A DNA stretch of 26,730 nucleotides, from IMG/VR virus record IMGVR_UViG_3300033153_004977, positions 1 through 26,730 of that record. The stretch is one strand, 5' to 3'. The DNA is from a virus. The notes beneath the pieces were generated by a model. That model saw only the letters and a list, made by a program, of their open reading frames with translations. It had not been told where the DNA came from and did no database searches. This document shows, piece by piece, positions 4,211 through 23,611 of this stretch (the first letter of the stretch is position 1; each line of letters begins with the position of its first letter). A program made the translations under genes and the position numbers.

Positions 4211-5304
4211 TCCACTTTTCCTCGTTTCCTGAAATATCTGGCTTCCTTTGGTATCTTATCGTCAGACAACTCACGATACTTGAACGTGATCCGCTGACCT
4301 AGATAAAAGTGTTTTGCTTGAGCACTGGGAAACATATCTTCACCTGGATGATCATTGGCATAATTTCGCTCTAAATCAGTGGCAAACGCCCGCTCGGCAT
4401 CAGTTAGACCGGATAGTTCCAATCGCTTACCCTTGTAGTCCAAGATAAGTGCCCCAATACAACCCATATGCTTAGAACCTTTGTTAGTCCGCCGCCCGCA
4501 GGTGAAGCCAGTGAGAATTCCCTCATCGTCATCGATGGGTTTGTACTTTAACAGATCGTTTACACGTCGAGGTGTCCAAAGTCCTTTGGGGTTTCGGATA
4601 ATGACGCCTTCGCCGCCTTGGTCCATCACACCATCCATGAAGCTATTAAGAGCGGCTCTGGCGGCTGCCTCGTCTTCTGGGAGTCTGATCTGCTTGAGAA
4701 TGGCACAAACGGCATTTGGATCATCTGAGAGGTGGTTTCGGAGAACTTGTAACTCTTGCTCGAAAGTAAAATCAGTACTAAACGATGGAGATTCCATCCA
4801 ACATGACTCTATATATTTTGACAACCAGGTCATGCAATTATCATCAATTACCCGATGAAAATTGCTGTTCTTGATCTCGCCCGGCATCCACACACGGGCA
4901 CCTGGCATCGAATAGATAGCATAACGAACCTGCTTAAATCGAGGATCAGGTTTATCCCCTGCAACAATTGAACGGCAAAGTTGGAATCTACCTCGACCAG
5001 CCCACAGTTCACCATCCAATGGAATAGTGGGTAGTCTATCTAAGAACCAATCAGGTGCTATGATAGGATTACCATAACGGCTCCATAACCCACTGGCAAT
5101 GGGTTTTATTTTGGGCTTCGGCTCTCCAGTCTTTGGATTGATCAGGCTGGCCCAAGGAATATCCTTCGTAGGGACACCACGACTGACACCGCCGTCCCAG
5201 AAGCATCGGCTGCCATCCAACTTTTCACTCAGCATCCAACCGGCGATCTTGGACTTGTCGGGATTAAATTTCTTCGCAAGCTGTAGAAATTCGCGTCTGG
5301 CCAT
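4207..5304 (-). CDS. ATP-dependent DNA ligase
   Basis: 365 aa, close to the length of T7-type phage ligases. It joins nicks in duplex DNA during replication and repair. Motif I SEKLDGSR places the adenylated lysine at Lys28. Motif III LDGELW is at 96-101, motif IV GGEGVIIRNP at 230-239, motif V LLKYKP at 251-256. The C-terminal 100 residues form the expected OB-fold, with the late motif ITFKYREL. The ATG at 5304 is the only sensible start. A 23-bp element shared with two other leaders (5336-5358) lies 32 nt upstream and probably drives transcription. Confidence 0.93.
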   Translation of the reverse strand: MARREFLQLAKKFNPDKSKIAGWMLSEKLDGSRCFWDGGVSRGVPTKDIPWASLINPKTGEPKPKIKPIASGLWSRYGNPIIAPDWFLDRLPTIPLDGELWAGRGRFQLCRSIVAGDKPDPRFKQVRYAIYSMPGARVWMPGEIKNSNFHRVIDDNCMTWLSKYIESCWMESPSFSTDFTFEQELQVLRNHLSDDPNAVCAILKQIRLPEDEAAARAALNSFMDGVMDQGGEGVIIRNPKGLWTPRRVNDLLKYKPIDDDEGILTGFTCGRRTNKGSKHMGCIGALILDYKGKRLELSGLTDAERAFATDLERNYANDHPGEDMFPSAQAKHFYLGQRITFKYRELSDDKIPKEARYFRKRGKVE

Positions 5305-8363: not shown

Positions 8364-8882
8364 TTAGGTTAGCAGGATCCTGTAGTTATTGTTGAGAAAA
8401 TCCTGACGAAACCGTTTGGTCACCATTCTGGCCGTGTGAAAATTATAATAGTCCATGAATGAACGATCTTTCCGCCCCATTGACACATTCCGTTGAGGTA
8501 TCTTCAATAGTGGGAGACCAACATTATCCATTACATACTCGAATTCCTCTTGGAGATTCTCGAAGTGGATGACATGATTGCAGGCGGGTTGTCCGAAGAA
8601 CATTCTCTCACCTTGTAAAAAGTGACATCCGTCGAGAAATTCTGGCAACCAGAGTGAGAATGGTTTCTCCCTTGGCTTGTTGTAGAACCAAGACACTATC
8701 ACATCGAATGGATTGCGAACAGTACAGATGACATCCCAATCATACAGGTCCCACGTCGGTTCGTAGGCATGGTGGTTACCTTTGATAACGAAACCCATTT
8801 TCATCAACGTGTGGGCGGTAGCGGTTGACGCCGTCCGAGGATGAGCAATAAAAGCGACTTTCTTTTCTTGATGTACATACAC
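8364..8882 (-). CDS. PAPS-dependent sulfotransferase-like protein
   Basis: 172 aa from a GTG at 8882, which shares its G with the TAG of the polymerase gene (TAGTG) and has GGAG 8 nt upstream; an upstream TTG would add seven residues. FIAHPRTAST (about 12-21) matches the 5'-phosphosulfate loop of sulfotransferases, and VRNPFDVIVSWF (about 55-66) matches the 3'-phosphate-binding motif (RNPxDxxxSxF). The protein is shorter than typical sulfotransferases (about 250-300 aa), so it is a compact form. It would move a sulfo group from PAPS to an acceptor such as a glycan, lipid or small molecule. The acceptor cannot be read from the sequence. Confidence 0.78.
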   Translation of the reverse strand: MYVHQEKKVAFIAHPRTASTATAHTLMKMGFVIKGNHHAYEPTWDLYDWDVICTVRNPFDVIVSWFYNKPREKPFSLWLPEFLDGCHFLQGERMFFGQPACNHVIHFENLQEEFEYVMDNVGLPLLKIPQRNVSMGRKDRSFMDYYNFHTARMVTKRFRQDFLNNNYRILLT

Positions 8883-11428
8883 TACATCATCTCCGGGGCA
8901 CAAATTTTGACGGTGACCGATCCACCCTTCTTCTCAGCCCAATTTGCTTGGGCTTCATTCCAAGTCATCCCGATCAGCGGAACTTGCGATCGATAAGATT
9001 CAACAGATTCCCTGACTTTTTGGGTCACTTGAGAGATATATTTTGGATGAGTAACGCACATGATTTCATCATGAACATTCATTGGAGCCACGATCAATTC
9101 ATGAACACCATAAGGTTGAATATCCCAAATCATTCGCTGAGTATTTTTCGTGATCTGTCCACCAGGTGATTGAATCTCGTGATTCGCAGCAGCCCGCATG
9201 TTAGCTTGCTGTAATCCAAAGGCTGCACCATACAACGCACTGGCAACAGCACCACCGGCTGTCTGGACTCGATCTCGACGCCAGACCTTCACCGGATGGT
9301 TTCGCCACCCCTTAGGTGGAGCATTGGCCAACTCAAACAAGGCTCGGCAAATCTTATTCTCTAGTGTGAAGTACCTGCGAAAACCTAAGAAGGATTCAAC
9401 GTAATCAGATGGTTCCTTCCAGATAACTTGTGTCCCGACACCACCAGGTTGACGCATCGAGCAGAAAGCATCGAATGTACGTTCACGAGCCTTACCCACG
9501 CCGGGATACTTCTTATCAAACGCCTCCATCGCCGCCTTGGCGACATCCTCATCGACACCCAGGTTGCGGACCAGAGTCTCCCAAGTGCCACCATAGATCA
9601 TAGCGAACACACCGGATTTACCCTTTAGGTACATGTCGTTCTCAGTACCACTTGATGCAAGTATCTGAGCATAGGTGTAACCAGGAAAGAGAGACATCGC
9701 GAACAGACCATGAATCTTTTGACGAACCATATGTTCATCATCACACTCATCGCATTTACCAGAGTCTTTGCAATCCTTGCAGCCAGCCCCCTCACATTTA
9801 TGGCACTTTCCAGTTTGATTGCAAAAAGGACATTCGATCTTCTTCAGTAGATCAGTACGGAGGGTTGGATCATTGTAGACGGCATCAGCCAGTGTTACCT
9901 CAAACGCATCAAAGTCACCACCACAGAGGACAAAATTATCCCATGTTAATGGAAAACATCTACGCACATCCTTAGTCGCTTTGATCCCTTGAGCGTTCAA
10001 GCCATCCGTCCCTGACATCCGGCTGGACTTGGTGCCAACGACAACGAAGGACGCATGGAAGCGACCAGCCAAGAGCAGCTTATTGTAGAGTTCAACTTCC
10101 TTGCCAGCGATCTTGATGTCCAATACCTCTTTGGCGCGGTAGGCGGCTGGGTGGTTACCCATGTCTTCCTCGCAAGGTGGCATAACTTTCAAGATACCTT
10201 CGTCACATCGTGGACAACCTTTGCCTTCGCACTTTTCGCAAGGCTCTTCTTCTCCAACAGTCCATTTCTTTTTGATCTTCTCCAAGTTCTGTTTCTTCGT
10301 GGACCAGACGCCGGTAGCTTCAATCTGGATGACTTCAGTGTCATCCATCATCTCGTACATGTATTCGCGAACTTCACTTGGTTTATTCGGATTGAACTTG
10401 CTGCCATCGACTTTCTCTTGAGCAATCTTGCAAAGGTCTTCCATGCCGGGTCTATCGATATTGAAACCATGCCAACGAATCACTGGAACCATTGTCGCCA
10501 GGATCGAATCATCATCACCTATTGGTGGATATTTGAAGTGCTTGTCGAGTTCCCGTGTGTAGACGATGTCATCGTAGGCATACTCTCTAGCATCTTCGTG
10601 AGTTCCCCAGTGATCAATGAACAGCTTGATCTTTGCGGGCCAGGCATGACCCTTGAGAACATCAATCTCTTTCTTCTTGTCATAACCCCAAACTTCCCAA
10701 TTCTTTTCACGGCTGGATATGGCTTTGGCGAATGGGGCATAACCCAATTCCTGAGGATACCAAGATTTCGGCGGTTCTACATCTTCGTAATGAAACTTTG
10801 GCATAAGATCCATGGCATGTTCAGCCAGAAATTTCAGACCACCGGCGGGTGCGAACTTTAGAACAACATCCTTGAAGTCAGGATCAAACTCTCCATCACG
10901 CATTCGATCCATGACAGTCCAGCGAGGGGCTTCGGGGTCAGCTTTACGAGCAAAATATATACCGTCCAACTCAACCCTTTTTTCAAGTTCTTCCGACAGC
11001 GCATACGCCAACGCAGTTGGAACTTTCCGAATATAAATACTCTTGCGCGCCATCAGTGATTGGAATTCGCCCTTACGAGAATACATCATCAAATCAAGAG
11101 CAGAAGCGAACTTGATGGCCGGTCCATCACGTCCGTACATTTCTAGTTCTGCTATCTCTTCGATGTGTTCGACCGGTATCCAGTCCAGAGGGCATAGACG
11201 AAAAATCGTATAGAGCTTCGCTAATTGAAAAACATCAAATGCCAAATTGAACCCGACAATACAGTGTTCAAGCCAACTTTCAATCAGACGGAGTGTCTTA
11301 CCAATAGGCTCAGTCCAGATGTCATAGAGATGGATCGGTCCGTCTTCGATAGCGTATTGAAGGAGCACAGCCATGGAGTGCAGACCGCAAGTCTCGGAAT
11401 CCACGTATATTTTAAGGGGTTTAGACAT
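8882..11428 (-). CDS. family A DNA polymerase with 3'-5' exonuclease and inserted zinc clusters
   Basis: 848 aa from the ATG at 11428. Exonuclease motifs: Exo I YVDSET (Asp10, Glu12), Exo II GFNLAFD (59-65), Exo III EYAYDDIVY (about 283-291). Polymerase motif A is GGDFDAFEVTLADA (503-516); motif B runs from Lys604 to Tyr612 in KSGVFAMIYGG; motif C is NVHDE (784-788). Phe608 aligns with E. coli Pol I Phe762. Two Cys-rich modules are inserted: CEKCEGKGCPRC (397-408) and a larger one at 533-562 (CPFCNQTGKCHKCEGAGCKDC..CDEC), DnaJ-like CxxCxGxG patterns placed between the exonuclease and motif A, and between motifs A and B. It is the main replicative polymerase of the phage. An HNH gene lies immediately upstream with an 8-nt overlap. 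Confidence 0.93.
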   Translation of the reverse strand: MSKPLKIYVDSETCGLHSMAVLLQYAIEDGPIHLYDIWTEPIGKTLRLIESWLEHCIVGFNLAFDVFQLAKLYTIFRLCPLDWIPVEHIEEIAELEMYGRDGPAIKFASALDLMMYSRKGEFQSLMARKSIYIRKVPTALAYALSEELEKRVELDGIYFARKADPEAPRWTVMDRMRDGEFDPDFKDVVLKFAPAGGLKFLAEHAMDLMPKFHYEDVEPPKSWYPQELGYAPFAKAISSREKNWEVWGYDKKKEIDVLKGHAWPAKIKLFIDHWGTHEDAREYAYDDIVYTRELDKHFKYPPIGDDDSILATMVPVIRWHGFNIDRPGMEDLCKIAQEKVDGSKFNPNKPSEVREYMYEMMDDTEVIQIEATGVWSTKKQNLEKIKKKWTVGEEEPCEKCEGKGCPRCDEGILKVMPPCEEDMGNHPAAYRAKEVLDIKIAGKEVELYNKLLLAGRFHASFVVVGTKSSRMSGTDGLNAQGIKATKDVRRCFPLTWDNFVLCGGDFDAFEVTLADAVYNDPTLRTDLLKKIECPFCNQTGKCHKCEGAGCKDCKDSGKCDECDDEHMVRQKIHGLFAMSLFPGYTYAQILASSGTENDMYLKGKSGVFAMIYGGTWETLVRNLGVDEDVAKAAMEAFDKKYPGVGKARERTFDAFCSMRQPGGVGTQVIWKEPSDYVESFLGFRRYFTLENKICRALFELANAPPKGWRNHPVKVWRRDRVQTAGGAVASALYGAAFGLQQANMRAAANHEIQSPGGQITKNTQRMIWDIQPYGVHELIVAPMNVHDEIMCVTHPKYISQVTQKVRESVESYRSQVPLIGMTWNEAQANWAEKKGGSVTVKICAPEMM

Positions 11429-12077
11429 GCTTCCAAGTTTTCCTTTGAACAATGAATTTGATATTCTGAGTTGAGCAATGATACTTGAGAGCAAGTTCTT
11501 GATGAGTCAAGCCTTTTGAGTATGTAGCACGAATTTCCAAGACATCCTCTTCTGTAAGACGCACTATGCGACGGGGTTGTCGAGAATACTCGGAGCGATC
11601 GATATGCTTCCAAAGTCTCCCACAACGTATTGCCGATACTGTACACTCACTGACTCCCAGTTCGAGTGCCAACGACCTACCAGTTTGTGGTGATGTCAAA
11701 ACATGCCTAGCTTGAGTCTCCGTCAAAATAGCCATTCCATGTTCTTCACCTGGATGTGAAATCTGATGACCTTTCTCATCGCGATCATCATTATTTTGAT
11801 ACCTCGTACCTTTCCAAAGATGTGCAGGATTACAACACGAAGGAATATCACACGTATGGCAAACATCGGTCCCACCTGGATCAATACCATTGGCTAAGAA
11901 AAATGCTATGCGAGGTGCTTTATACAGAGGACCCAAACGAAACAAACCTCGTCCAAATTCATCCTTAGCAGCAGTCCACTTCCAACATTCATCAGAACCA
12001 CGTTTATCGACTTTCAACCAGAAGCGTGCAATATCAGATTCTGTGAGTGCAGGTATTGGTAGATATTTTTGTTTCAT
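11421..12077 (-). CDS. HNH homing endonuclease with two HTH modules
   Basis: 218 aa from the ATG at 12077 (an upstream TTG would add four residues). The order is an N-terminal SDECWKWTA segment, an HNH core with ICysPair VCHTCDIPSCCNPAHLWKG, then NNDDRDEKGH, then two repeated HTH units: LTETQARHVLTS...CTVSAIRCGRLWKHI and LTEEDVLEIRATYSKG...WKHV. The doubled DNA-binding tail may give a longer recognition site than its relatives. It sits directly in front of the DNA polymerase gene; polymerase genes are favoured sites for such elements, and the target may be the polymerase locus of a related phage. Confidence 0.87.
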   Translation of the reverse strand: MKQKYLPIPALTESDIARFWLKVDKRGSDECWKWTAAKDEFGRGLFRLGPLYKAPRIAFFLANGIDPGGTDVCHTCDIPSCCNPAHLWKGTRYQNNDDRDEKGHQISHPGEEHGMAILTETQARHVLTSPQTGRSLALELGVSECTVSAIRCGRLWKHIDRSEYSRQPRRIVRLTEEDVLEIRATYSKGLTHQELALKYHCSTQNIKFIVQRKTWKHV

Positions 12078-12133
12078 GTTGATTCTCAAATGATGGTGTT
12101 TGTTTTATGGGCACGATATACATCGCACTTCAA

Positions 12134-12158: not shown

Positions 12159-12290
12159 TCACTCGACTTCCTCCATCGCGAAGTCATACCCTTCCCAATT
12201 ATCAACTCCAGCATTGAACAATGCTTGAAGGACTTTTGAATCATGCAAAAGAATTTCATACTCTTCGTGTGTTATCGTCACGTCGTCCAT
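12159..12290 (-). CDS. conserved small phage protein, 43 aa
   Basis: MDDVTITHEEYEILLHDSKV ... LFNAGVDNWEGYDFAMEE. The pattern EEYExLLxDSxxLxAL...AGVDNWxGYDxA is widespread in small proteins of unrelated phages. Its function is unknown. It overlaps the end of the upstream HNH gene by 13 nt, suggesting that the HNH gene was inserted just in front of it. Confidence 0.7.
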   Translation of the reverse strand: MDDVTITHEEYEILLHDSKVLQALFNAGVDNWEGYDFAMEEVE

Positions 12291-12931
12291 GTGAGATGTT
12301 CCTTTTTCCAGTTACCTAATGCCTGTTTTGCTTGAACAATAGTATCGAACGCTCCAAGCCAATAATGCTTACCCTTGGATGTGATTCTTGCTTGAAACCG
12401 ACCTTTGTAAGGAGAGACACCCCTCACCCCAGTCTGTCCATCTATATTCCCGCTGCCAGTATGACGTTTTCCTTTGAGATGCTTCCATTTCTTACCACGT
12501 CGTATATTTGATATAGTAGAATCAACTACACCATACACATCAGCAAGTGCAGAATTGGTCTCATCAGATTCAAGAATCTCGACTACTTGAGTTTCAGTTA
12601 AGATTGATGAAATAGTTTGTTCACCTCTAATTTGTCTCCCTTTATCTTGCATGTCTCGATTATTATCCAAAACTGTCCCGAGCCAGAGATGTTCAGGATT
12701 CACACAAGATCGATTGTCACAAGTATGACAAACACACATATTTCCAGGGTCTTTATTCTTAATAAAATATGAAACACGATGTGCTCCATATGAAACAAAC
12801 CCAACTGAAAATTGGCCATAGCCATCTGCTTTGTTAGCAGTCCACTCCCAGCAATCATCAGAATCACACTTGTCGACTTTCGACCAGAAGCGTTTAAGAT
12901 CAGATTCTGTGAGTATAGGTATTGCTTTCAT
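12278..12931 (-). CDS. HNH homing endonuclease with HTH and AP2 domains
   Basis: 217 aa from the ATG at 12931, with GGAG five bases upstream; longer in-frame reading would run through the tRNA-Thr gene and is rejected. Domains: SDDCWEWTA start; HNH core AHRVSYF ... CVCHTCDNRSCVNPEHLWLG; HTH LTETQVVEILESDE...NIRRGKKWKHL; and a C-terminal AP2-type DNA-binding domain TGVRGVSPYKGRFQARI ... YWLGAFDTIVQAKQAL. It lies directly downstream of tRNA-Thr, so it may travel with, or cut near, a tRNA locus. Confidence 0.87.
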   Translation of the reverse strand: MKAIPILTESDLKRFWSKVDKCDSDDCWEWTANKADGYGQFSVGFVSYGAHRVSYFIKNKDPGNMCVCHTCDNRSCVNPEHLWLGTVLDNNRDMQDKGRQIRGEQTISSILTETQVVEILESDETNSALADVYGVVDSTISNIRRGKKWKHLKGKRHTGSGNIDGQTGVRGVSPYKGRFQARITSKGKHYWLGAFDTIVQAKQALGNWKKEHLTWTT

Positions 12932-12942
12932 AATTTCTCCAA

Positions 12943-13013
12943 AGCCGCAGGAAGGAATCGAACCTTCTTCGTCGGTGTACAAGACCGATGCTTGACCATT
13001 AAGCTACAGCGGC
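12943..13013 (-). tRNA. tRNA-Thr (anticodon UGU)
   Basis: A 71-nt cloverleaf: acceptor GCCGCTG/CTGCGGC with one T-T mismatch at pair 6-67; D-stem GCTT/AAGC; anticodon stem TCGGT/ACCGA around the loop CTTGTAC (U33, anticodon UGU reading ACA); T-arm GAAGG-TTCGATT-CCTTC. CCA is not encoded. It lies between a structured RNA candidate (5' side) and an HNH gene (3' side). Confidence 0.88.
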
Positions 13014-13017
13014 AAAA

Positions 13018-13146
13018 GGGACGCCCGGCTCATCGCATGGGTTAGTCCAGGTTACCACCCTAGACTATACCTCCCGGTTACCAACGTCGCCAGCCATGCG
13101 GTAGTAGTTGTTCAATGGCTCATTTGCCATACACCGGGAACGTCCC
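13018..13146 (-). ncRNA. candidate structured RNA 1, 5' of tRNA-Thr
   Basis: These 129 nt have no ORF and show nested base pairing (given in + coordinates). Closing stem: 13018-13023 with 13141-13146 (GGGACG/CGTCCC), continued by 13024-13028 with 13134-13138 (CCCGG/CCGGG) across a 2-nt bulge. Second helix: 13034-13040 with 13094-13100 (CGCATGG/CCATGCG). Inside it is a 9-bp hairpin, 13043-13051 with 13059-13067, with a 7-nt loop. A separate hairpin pairs 13115-13119 with 13126-13130 (ATGGC/GCCAT). The block ends 4 nt before tRNA-Thr, and its first base is the last base of the upstream TAG stop. Stable small RNAs of unknown function in tRNA clusters are known from T4 (RNAs C and D). I do not recognise a riboswitch or ribozyme core. 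The strand is inferred from neighbours. Confidence 0.6.
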
Positions 13147-13373
13147 TATATCTTGTCGAGTACTGCTTGTGCAGCTTCCTCCCTGTTCTTGTAGACACCT
13201 GTGTCCATGAGAAGATCGAGAGCTTCTTTGATCCACGCTGTTACCTTGGCCATCTTCTTAGGCATATCAGGATCGACGATAGCTCTCAAGCCATCTGTGA
13301 TTCCACCACCGACTGGGATGGCATCTCTCGTAAACTTATTGATCACCAATCTCTTTTCATTCGGTCCCATCAT
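13146..13373 (-). CDS. hypothetical, 75 aa, C-terminal helical domain
   Basis: MMGPNEKRLVINKFTRDAIP ... REEAAQAVLDKI. Its ATG lies inside the 3' end of the ParB-like gene (overlap 17 nt), with GGGA five bases upstream. A PVGGGITDGLRAI turn is followed by helices (ALDLLMDTGVYKNREEAAQ) that resemble the short dimerisation helices of phage DNA-binding proteins, but no family can be named. The gene ends at the first base pair of structured RNA candidate 1. Confidence 0.55.
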   Translation of the reverse strand: MMGPNEKRLVINKFTRDAIPVGGGITDGLRAIVDPDMPKKMAKVTAWIKEALDLLMDTGVYKNREEAAQAVLDKI

Positions 13374-14181
13374 CGTCATCCCATGGATTATCGTTGTTGC
13401 TCTCCTGTTGATAGTCAGGAGCATAAGTCTTGATGTCTTTCCTGATATCAGTAGTAGTAATATATCCAGCAGCCCATGCAAGAAGACGTGGAGGCAACCC
13501 ATTGATCCCAGCGTTGATCAAGACTCCTGTCATCTTGCTGATCTGTTCCTTGGTTTTCCGTGGTCTGAATTTTCGTTTGAGTTTTTTGGGAAACTTTTTC
13601 CCCGATCTGCTCTTCAATTGGATGATCTGCTTGGCACCCTCGATCCTCTCATCTTCGGGCAGATTCCAAATGGCTTCGATGTCAGTTGCAACTATTCGAC
13701 CAGCCGCTGCCAACTGTTGAACCTCTTCCGGAAGTTGAGTCAAGCGAAATCTAGTGTGTATCCATCTAGTGGGTTTCTTCAACTCAGCCGCTGCCTTCCT
13801 GAGTGATATACCCTCAGAATACATTGCTTTAATAGCCAAGGCTTCTTCAAGCATGTTCAGGTCTTTACGTTCCAAGTTCTCCGTGAAATTCAGTAGGCGA
13901 GCCTGGTGTTCGTTAAGGTCTGATCTAACGACTGCTGGTATCTTATCCCATTTCAGGAAGACGGTACAGGCTTTGTATCGACGGTGACCTGCGATGAGCC
14001 TTAACTTCCCATCCTTCCATGGTTGGACTACAATAGGAAACTGAAGACCAATCTCTCCAATGGAGTCTGCCAGTTCGGAAACTGACTGTAGTGTGAAAGC
14101 ACCACGACAATTGAAACTCTCGTCATAGAAAATCTCTGCAACAGGAATCTCGTATGCGTCGTAGTGCTTCAATCTTTTCAT
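13357..14181 (-). CDS. ParB-like DNA-binding/nuclease-fold protein 1
   Basis: 274 aa from the ATG at 14181 (ATGA overlap with the upstream gene). ParB N-terminal domain: IPVAEIFYDESFNCRG, GLQFPIVVQPWKDGK, GHRRYKA (65-71), then TENLERKDLNMLEEA, followed by an HTH-type block (ISLRKAAAELKKPTRWIHTR). A basic stretch KKFPKKLKRKFRPRK and an acidic tail (DNPWDDDDGTE) follow. Phage ParB-like proteins act in partitioning, transcription control, or as CTP-dependent clamps or nucleases; I see no ParA partner, so segregation is unlikely. A second paralogue is at 22736-23611. Confidence 0.82.
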   Translation of the reverse strand: MKRLKHYDAYEIPVAEIFYDESFNCRGAFTLQSVSELADSIGEIGLQFPIVVQPWKDGKLRLIAGHRRYKACTVFLKWDKIPAVVRSDLNEHQARLLNFTENLERKDLNMLEEALAIKAMYSEGISLRKAAAELKKPTRWIHTRFRLTQLPEEVQQLAAAGRIVATDIEAIWNLPEDERIEGAKQIIQLKSRSGKKFPKKLKRKFRPRKTKEQISKMTGVLINAGINGLPPRLLAWAAGYITTTDIRKDIKTYAPDYQQESNNDNPWDDDDGTE

Positions 14182-14858
14182 GTCCACATCCACAATCGTA
14201 CGGCGGCGAGTCGCTTCAACATCTCCTCTGCCTTCTCGTCCATGAGTTGCTCCACTTCATTGATCTCGTTGATGCGAGCCTTGTAAGCAGTCTTATGTTC
14301 GTCATCTCTGTAGACCATTTCCAATTTACCGGCGACACAGTCGGGCATACCCTCGTAGGGCACACAGAGCATCTTGGGACCATCGATTGCATCCCAGAGT
14401 TCATCCATCTTTGCCGGATACTCTTTCAGGTAGACCGTATTCCACCATCGGTAGAGTTCCTGCATTTCATCCATAACGTTTTCCATCACGCCATTCACCA
14501 TCAGTTGATGGGGACAGTCACCATACCACTCGATGTGACCGGGCAAGCATTCCTTGTCAATGAAGTCGGTGAGTATCTGGAATGACGCATGGAGCAAGAT
14601 CGTGCGCCGATCGGACCAGGTATGTGGCAAGTGGCGACAACGGACAGTCCCATAGCGATGCCATGCCCAACACTTGAGGTTATACCACATCGTCATTGGA
14701 CGGAGACAGGCTGGCCAGATTTCCCAATACTTGTATTTGATCTTGGTGATAAGAGATTTCGGTGAGGCATCATTGAATTCAATCATTGCATGTGTCCAAA
14801 TACTGCGTTGAAAACAGTCGGCTGCTTCATCAACTGGTAAGTCTCCGGAATAAGTCAC
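14178..14858 (-). CDS. conserved phage protein of unknown function, Trp/Cys-rich
   Basis: 226 aa if started at the GTG at 14858, or 202 aa from the ATG at 14786 (MIEFNDASPKSL...). The N-terminal half is rich in Trp, Tyr and His (KYKYWEIWPACLRPMTMWYN, HTWSDRRTILLHASFQIL), and the C-terminus is a charged helix (EVEQLMDEKAEEMLKRL). This style of protein recurs in large phages, but I know no function. The shared leader motif lies at 14858-14876; if it is a promoter, the GTG start would be nearly leaderless and the ATG at 14786 becomes the better choice. Confidence 0.6.
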   Translation of the reverse strand: MTYSGDLPVDEAADCFQRSIWTHAMIEFNDASPKSLITKIKYKYWEIWPACLRPMTMWYNLKCWAWHRYGTVRCRHLPHTWSDRRTILLHASFQILTDFIDKECLPGHIEWYGDCPHQLMVNGVMENVMDEMQELYRWWNTVYLKEYPAKMDELWDAIDGPKMLCVPYEGMPDCVAGKLEMVYRDDEHKTAYKARINEINEVEQLMDEKAEEMLKRLAAVRLWMWT

Positions 14859-17325: not shown

Positions 17326-17357
17326 AAAACAACCCACAGGGTGAACCTGTGGGTTGT
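17326..17357 (-). terminator. Rho-independent terminator after the secreted protease
   Basis: A perfect 12-bp stem ACAACCCACAGG/CCTGTGGGTTGT (17329-17340 with 17346-17357) with a 5-nt loop. On the minus strand it is followed by TTTCTC, so it stops transcription coming from the protease gene. On the plus strand there is no T-run. It lies 40 nt after that gene and 25 nt before the next start, implying a separate promoter or partial read-through. Confidence 0.85.
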
Positions 17358-22735: not shown

Positions 22736-23611
22736 CTAAGTTCCTTTCCAGGTCTTGCGGGCTCTTGCGCGAGCCGCGATCTCTTGTTCTTCCTGTCCAC
22801 CTTTATCGATGTGCATAGCCCATTGTAAGGCTGCTACCCATCCGTCCAAAGGCGTCTTGCAACACTCTGAAGCGATTATCAGAGCGGCTTCCGTTTTCAT
22901 TTCAGCTTCAGCTTGAATCTCTTTCAAAGATTTGAGATAAGGTTGTGCTTTGAAATCATTCGTGAAAAAAGTATCGAGTTTGCCTTGACGAACGGCTTCC
23001 TTGAAATGTTTGATGATACCGGCAGCTAGGGCTTTGAATGCAGTTGTGTGCATGATCTTCGCGTGATCGATGTATTCGGGACGTAACTTCGGAGGTATCT
23101 TCACCAGCATGTATGCGTTCCCAAGTGGAATCTCTCCCCGATCGATTGCTTTCTGGATTTCCTTTGAGAGTCGGAGCAGACCCAATTGTTGCTGAACCCA
23201 CGAGGTATTCTTATTAACCATACTGGACAATTGTCTCAATGTGATACCATCGTGCATCTTCTGAATTCGTCGCAATTGCTTGGCGAATTCGACGGGTCTT
23301 GTCTCAGGTCGGATTGCGTTCGCTTGAATCTGAAGGGCTAATACTTGCTCATCAGTAACGCCATCCTTGATGATGCACGGCAGACTTTTGATGCCAAGTT
23401 CGCGGGCGGCTGTCGTTCTCCACATCCCGTCGATAATCTCCCAGAAACCTGGCTTTCGAGGGCTGGGACGGACTGCAATCGAGTTAAGGAGACCAATTTC
23501 ACCAATGGATGTCTTGAGTTCTAGGAAATCAGTTGAATCACGGAGTACGGGTCTCAGGAGTATCCAAGGATCAAGGAGTTTGTTGAGTGGCAGCTTTTCA
23601 AGTGCAAGCAT
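22736..23611 (-). CDS. ParB-like DNA-binding protein 2
   Basis: 291 aa. ParB-type N-terminal domain: ELKTSIGEIGLLNSIAVRPS, WEIIDGMWRTTAARELG (DGMWR replaces the usual GHRR), then IQANAIRPETRPVEFAKQLR, and an HTH-type block ITLRQLSSMVNKNTSWVQQQ. Start ATG with GGGAG seven bases upstream. It is the first minus-strand gene after the divergent region, so one 19-bp repeat at 23627-23645 sits in its leader and might be its binding site (autoregulation or origin binding). About the size of the other ParB-like protein but of low similarity. Confidence 0.8.
   Translation of the reverse strand: MLALEKLPLNKLLDPWILLRPVLRDSTDFLELKTSIGEIGLLNSIAVRPSPRKPGFWEIIDGMWRTTAARELGIKSLPCIIKDGVTDEQVLALQIQANAIRPETRPVEFAKQLRRIQKMHDGITLRQLSSMVNKNTSWVQQQLGLLRLSKEIQKAIDRGEIPLGNAYMLVKIPPKLRPEYIDHAKIMHTTAFKALAAGIIKHFKEAVRQGKLDTFFTNDFKAQPYLKSLKEIQAEAEMKTEAALIIASECCKTPLDGWVAALQWAMHIDKGGQEEQEIAARARARKTWKGT

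Follow-up and report, generated by a model that had tools for sequence, protein, structure and literature searches.

The stretch between a short open reading frame and a tRNA-Thr gene in the analysed phage DNA specifies a structured noncoding RNA of a real new family, as judged from sequence and predicted fold with strong comparative support; its expression has not been tested. The window, i.e. the whole stretch of DNA analysed, is a 26.7 kb piece of an uncultured tailed phage (IMG/VR virus record), in which genes are mostly on the minus strand. The RNA has the orientation of the neighbouring genes and is located just ahead of tRNA-Thr. Its 5' end (13146) is the last base of the TAG codon of ORF 13502-13146, and 4 nt separate its 3' end (13018) from the tRNA, in agreement with the limits given in the preliminary description of this DNA. 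The locus comprises the following features:

13018..13146, minus strand: structured noncoding RNA, 129 nt (match of covariance model R1 with exact ends, 43.2 bits; fold; covariation)
12943..13013, minus strand: tRNA-Thr (UGU), 4 nt 3' of the RNA (ARAGORN; Rfam tRNA, 66.5 bits)
13357..14193, minus strand: ParB-like gene, upstream context (Pfam ParB_N, 1.5e-12)
8882..11494, minus strand: family A DNA polymerase gene (Pfam DNA_pol_A)

The DNA polymerase gene is closer to the RNA in most relatives of the window's clade. Here, tRNA-Thr is followed on the minus strand by two HNH endonuclease genes (12278-12931 and 11421-12089) whose start regions resemble each other, and they are probably mobile insertions that separate the RNA from the polymerase gene. 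Two ParB-like genes are present in the same 26.7 kb fragment (13357-14193 and 22736-23611). In addition, a terminator-like, near-perfect inverted repeat of 12 bp with a short loop (ACAACCCACAGG / CCTGTGGGTTGT) is found near a gene boundary at 17329-17357.

The RNA is predicted to form a closed domain, composed of the closing stem P1, the hairpin P2 and the helix P3, which would hold P4 and P5. A pseudoknot would tie the linker between P2 and P3 to the strand preceding P4. The P4 hairpin of most relatives is absent in the window and in its closest relative, and the elements identified in the window RNA are:

13134..13146, minus strand: P1 closing helix, 5' strand (GGGACG, UU bulge, CCCGG; fold, covariation)
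13018..13028, minus strand: P1 closing helix, 3' strand (CCGGGCGUCCC; fold, covariation)
13115..13130, minus strand: P2 side hairpin (AUGGC-AAAUGA-GCCAU; fold, covariation)
13094..13100, minus strand: P3 helix, 5' strand (CGCAUGG; fold, covariation)
13034..13040, minus strand: P3 helix, 3' strand (CCAUGCG; fold, covariation)
13044..13066, minus strand: P5 hairpin (AGUCUAGG-GUGGUAA-CCUGGACU; fold, covariation)
13107..13110, minus strand: pseudoknot 5' strand (CAAC, inside conserved UGAAC; covariation)
13082..13085, minus strand: pseudoknot 3' strand (GUUG, following conserved GAC; covariation)

All four helices proposed in the preliminary description are recovered in the computed fold, as a closing stem of 11-12 bp with the UU bulge, a side hairpin of 5 bp, CGCAUGG/CCAUGCG and an inner hairpin of 8-9 bp; the pseudoknot had been missed. 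The minimum free energy of 13146-13018 (minus strand) is -55.4 kcal/mol, compared to a shuffled mean of -42.8 (z -2.93), and one of 200 shuffles folded as well. Because the plus strand of the same block gives z -3.0, folding alone is not decisive, and evidence modelled from the single sequence is only moderate.

Comparative evidence was collected using the DNA polymerase as a query, since no relatives of the 118-aa upstream ORF were found in a homologue search. Polymerase homology disclosed 10 and then 80 loci. The closest relative (L002, 75% polymerase identity) carries the RNA at the corresponding position (78% identity over 73 nt), with a different gene preceding it; the upstream ORF is not conserved, whereas the RNA is. 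A narrow pattern derived from the window and L002 matched only the contig of the latter. Many of the more distant relatives carry the RNA upstream of the polymerase gene, mostly without an adjoining tRNA. The placement directly 5' of tRNA-Thr, emphasized in the preliminary description, is therefore true of the window and incidental to the RNA. Furthermore, in the close relative L013 the RNA is missing and tRNA-Thr directly follows the stop codon, so that the RNA behaves as a separable unit. Two details of these polymerase loci can be added. Three tandem copies of a short repeat (GGAACTTTCTGTCAA) are located just ahead of the polymerase gene of L002 (9935-9986), and the RNA of L082 (9916-10032) looks intact in its 5' half alone, the polymerase reading frame apparently starting within the 3' half.

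In a MAFFT seed alignment of 15 related phages from which the window was left out (A3), 89.8% of cells are paired and changes on both sides are observed at 31 of 44 pairs, while sliding the partners as a control lowered pairing to 36-46%. The covariance model R1, built from 15 relatives and likewise excluding the window, matched exactly 13018-13146 on the minus strand when run on the window alone with filters off (43.2 bits, E 5e-8); the E value of this match was 3e-6 across 1.7 Mb. The alignment resulting from the R1 search, with members reached through polymerase homology (A4), has 92.8% of cells paired and both-side changes at 36/36 modelled pairs, including 12/12 in P1 and 5/5 in P2. Being fitted to the model, A4 leans towards it. 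The claims of covariation rest on A3 and A4, as pattern scans fix two variants of the pseudoknot. The pseudoknot (13107-13110 with 13082-13085) was not included in the covariance model, and it is paired in 98.9% of cells with both-side changes at three of its four pairs; the window has CAAC/GUUG, and most others have CCCA/UGGG, CCUA/UAGG or CCUC/GAGG. For a possible contact between the P4 and P5 loops (AGCC/GGCU), pairing reaches only 69% of cells, and no claim is made. Conservation in the family is strongest in the core formed by P3 and the pseudoknot, and not at the ends.

The decisive support for the window RNA is thus comparative, consisting of covariation and an independent model match with exact ends, both of which are drawn from sequence. 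The preliminary description considered the fold unlikely to arise by chance. Folding energies alone did not decide this, with z only about -3 and both strands alike, and it was covariation together with the exact-end match that refuted chance. A covariance search of related phages had been named there as a check, which would fail if relatives kept the sequence without compensatory changes; compensatory changes were found, and the proposal was not refuted by this test. The designation as an undescribed structured RNA also stands, given covariation in independently found phages and the lack of an Rfam match.

R1 matched 24 of 85 sources. When viral contigs were scanned with two patterns, 77 were picked out, and R1 confirmed 69 of the 76 searched. 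Altogether, about 90 distinct phage records carry the RNA, mostly from uncultured phages with sizes ranging from about 85 kb to 608 kb. Eighteen records searched over their whole length (up to 608 kb) were positive with a second model, R2, and all of them have a single copy; the window itself stays below the R2 threshold, and its clade has few representatives in the R2 seed. In most lineages the length is about 110-140 nt. An exact core pattern, which does not cover core variants, had no matches in a single scan of 84,980 genomes of bacteria and archaea; as far as this one pattern shows, the RNA is absent from bacterial chromosomes, as expected of a phage-specific RNA.

The only cultured carrier found is Sinorhizobium phage Phosso, with the RNA at 288,275-288,397 of PV764938; this phage was reached via its tail sheath protein and makes the RNA experimentally testable now. 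BLAST of six RNA members, including that of the window, against cultured phages revealed no homologues, and the tail regions of five cultured jumbo phages (Atu_ph07, PA5oct, CBB, 121Q and GAP32) gave no convincing R1 match. With the cut-off opened to E 10, Rfam 15 produced only chance-level matches below gathering scores for the RNAs of the window, L047, L024, L108 and L131, and only the tRNA was found in the window region. No paper describing the RNA was found in a literature search. Novelty is claimed for the RNA family in its sequence and fold; considered as a kind of gene, it can be grouped with other stable RNAs of phages whose function is not known.

Four types of gene neighbourhood were observed. 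In the window's clade the RNA lies between a ParB-side gene and DNA polymerase A. Other members are in or beside tRNA arrays, a tRNA being present within 400 nt at 21 of 78 non-redundant loci; the nearest tRNA is on the strand of the RNA in all 21, at distances down to 0-5 nt. In large and jumbo phages the RNA is located between tail sheath and tail tube genes, the sheath being identified from ORFs matched to annotated sheaths. The remaining context is beside terminase, NAMPT, TyrRS or homing endonuclease genes. Downstream genes vary by lineage, and the conserved downstream gene that would define a cis-regulatory leader is not found.

Members in tRNA arrays and jumbo phages have an extra hairpin, P6, between P3 and P1, which the window and the rest of the polymerase clade lack. 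Acceptor-, D- and T-like arms occur together only in L122 and L137, where P1 is an acceptor-like helix of 7 bp, P2 is D-arm-like (GCCC-UUGGUA-GGGC), and P6 is T-arm-like (AGGAG-UUCAAUU-CUCCU, loop UUCAAUU). In six tRNA-array members, the P2 loop UGCUCA is complementary to the P6 loop UGAGCA over 5-6 bp, resembling the docking of D and T loops; the version in L133 is altered and still pairs. P2 loops of jumbo members are UUCG or GNRA tetraloops. Neither ARAGORN nor the Rfam tRNA model recognizes the RNA as a tRNA with a cloverleaf and an anticodon arm. These sequence features suggest that tRNA-like ends may be matured by tRNA enzymes, although not generally, since the window's clade lacks P6, and processing is untested.

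Of 50 records reached via loci of the RNA or of Ro, 10 contain a gene for a Ro/TROVE protein, and in one of these 10 (Atu_ph07) no RNA was detected. In the jumbo sheath-tube locus of 12 contigs and of cultured phage Phosso, the Ro gene, which encodes gp398 in Phosso, is about 1-2.6 kb 3' of the RNA on the same strand. Independently of this lineage, L017, a member of the polymerase clade, has a Ro gene whose end lies 15 nt upstream of the RNA. Position beside a Ro gene is accordingly seen in one jumbo lineage and L017, and not in most carriers. Ro as a general partner was rejected as a firm claim: TROVE was also found in 8 of 40 polymerase-clade records without detected RNA, no significant R1 or R2 match lies close to any other Ro gene of the 80 loci, and four Ro-bearing actinophages gave no R2 match. 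Ro remains a candidate partner in some phages, neither proven nor general, and there are no binding data. A group I intron (89 bits) was noticed downstream of the Ro gene in the phage contig L203 (9571-9788).

We consider it probable that the RNA is encoded by a stand-alone gene of large tailed phages and acts in trans as a noncoding RNA, because the fold is kept while neighbouring genes change. The analysis shows the fold with its pseudoknot, the presence of one copy, the distribution in phages and the variety of gene contexts, whereas transcription, processing, protein binding and function are inferred. The RNA would probably be trimmed out of a longer transcript, in tRNA arrays by the enzymes that mature neighbouring tRNAs, and it would then act during infection as a stable RNA bound to protein in a ribonucleoprotein. 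The partner may be phage Ro where its gene adjoins the RNA; in other phages, a host protein or a different phage protein may take this role. The RNA is well conserved as a single copy in surroundings as different as tRNA arrays, tail operons and the vicinity of replication genes, and it is probably useful in infection. What counts against action in trans is a coding gene within 20-150 nt downstream at many loci, and a cis role in some lineages is therefore not excluded. Phage polymerases with RNA operators are known, e.g. T4 gp43, and the distance between the RNA and the polymerase ORF is often only 20-250 nt in the polymerase clade; a riboswitch-like leader or autogenous operator, ancestrally of the DNA polymerase, could thus be imagined, with the tRNA and HNH gene of the window inserted later. 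We regard this as improbable, since the next gene elsewhere is a tRNA, a tail tube gene or a terminase-side ORF, the RNA also occurs between tRNAs with no coding gene close by, and P1 closes the domain with no conserved expression platform visible. Virtually no credence can be given to a chance fold of a GC-rich spacer, which would agree with the modest z value and the equal folding of both strands and is refuted by the comparative data.

The arms of L122 and L137, the complementary loops of the six array members and the position of array members flush with tRNAs would also fit a cloverleaf-like decoy or mimic that engages RNase P, nucleases or the CCA enzyme, and so shields phage tRNAs or blocks host anticodon nucleases. 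This is distinctly improbable for the family: lack of P6 in the polymerase clade and tetraloops in jumbo P2 indicate that tRNA likeness is not ancestral or not general, and conservation peaks in the core. Alternatively, the RNA could be a phage partner similar to Y RNA, which binds the Ro ring and steers Ro or a tethered nuclease to structured or damaged RNAs such as tRNAs. The Ro genes next to the RNA in the jumbo lineage and L017 favour it, as does the lack of any Rfam Y RNA among hits listed in a gathering-threshold scan of nine Ro loci carrying the RNA. TROVE proteins occur in a subset of jumbo phages, and the cellular ones work with a tRNA-like partner (PMC7824862). However, the jumbo cases all concern the same syntenic locus and could go back to a single event, no significant R1 or R2 match lies near the other Ro genes of the 80 loci or in the four actinophages tested, and most carriers have no detected TROVE gene, though many records are fragments. 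The RNA itself is not a Y RNA by Rfam models (window, L047, L024, L108, L131 and the nine Ro loci). We hold this possibility to be unlikely, if tenable, and quite unlikely in its extended form, in which a phage-only pseudoknotted RNA with tRNA-like ends would serve phage Ro in the way of a Y RNA and guard or recycle tRNAs in infection.

Among known RNAs, the stable RNAs C and D of T4 (species 1 and 2; 139 and 119 nt) are also products of phage stable-RNA genes of unknown function adjoining tRNA genes, but neither R1 nor R2 matches them, and RNA C ends in a T-arm-like hairpin and has a different fold. Homology was rejected, as the best R1 score in the T4 region is 6.9 bits, not at rnaC or rnaD, and T4 has no R2 match. 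The T4 parallel drawn in the preliminary description consequently holds for position, some relatives being inside phage tRNA arrays, and fails for homology. Y RNAs and bacterial YrlA with Ro60/Rsr are similar in the adjoining Ro/TROVE gene in some phages, in paired ends and in tRNA-like arms of some members; they differ in that no Rfam Y RNA model matches, most carriers are without Ro, and the family has a complex pseudoknotted core. GOLLD and ROOL are large ornate, structured RNAs reported from phage or phage-linked DNA, with unsettled function. They are several hundred nt long, exceeding the length typical of the present family, and have no Rfam match to it; structures of both are given in PMC12286853. 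The manA and wcaG RNAs, putative 5' UTR elements (PMC2864571), are likewise structured motifs in phages, but neither model matches the family.

Other RNA elements were noticed in the vicinity of some members. In L209, from a phage contig of 296 kb, a wcaG RNA (4298-4413; Rfam RF01761, 56 bits) follows the RNA at a distance of about 0.9 kb, and a permuted tmRNA (Rfam RF04321, 116 bits) is in the same phage tRNA array as the RNA in L133 (951-1219, minus strand). In jumbo phages, at L206 (4958-5400) and homologous loci (alignment A7), noncoding sequence is conserved past the RNA for about 300 nt in the direction of the Ro gene, and this extension may represent a larger structured RNA or a second one.
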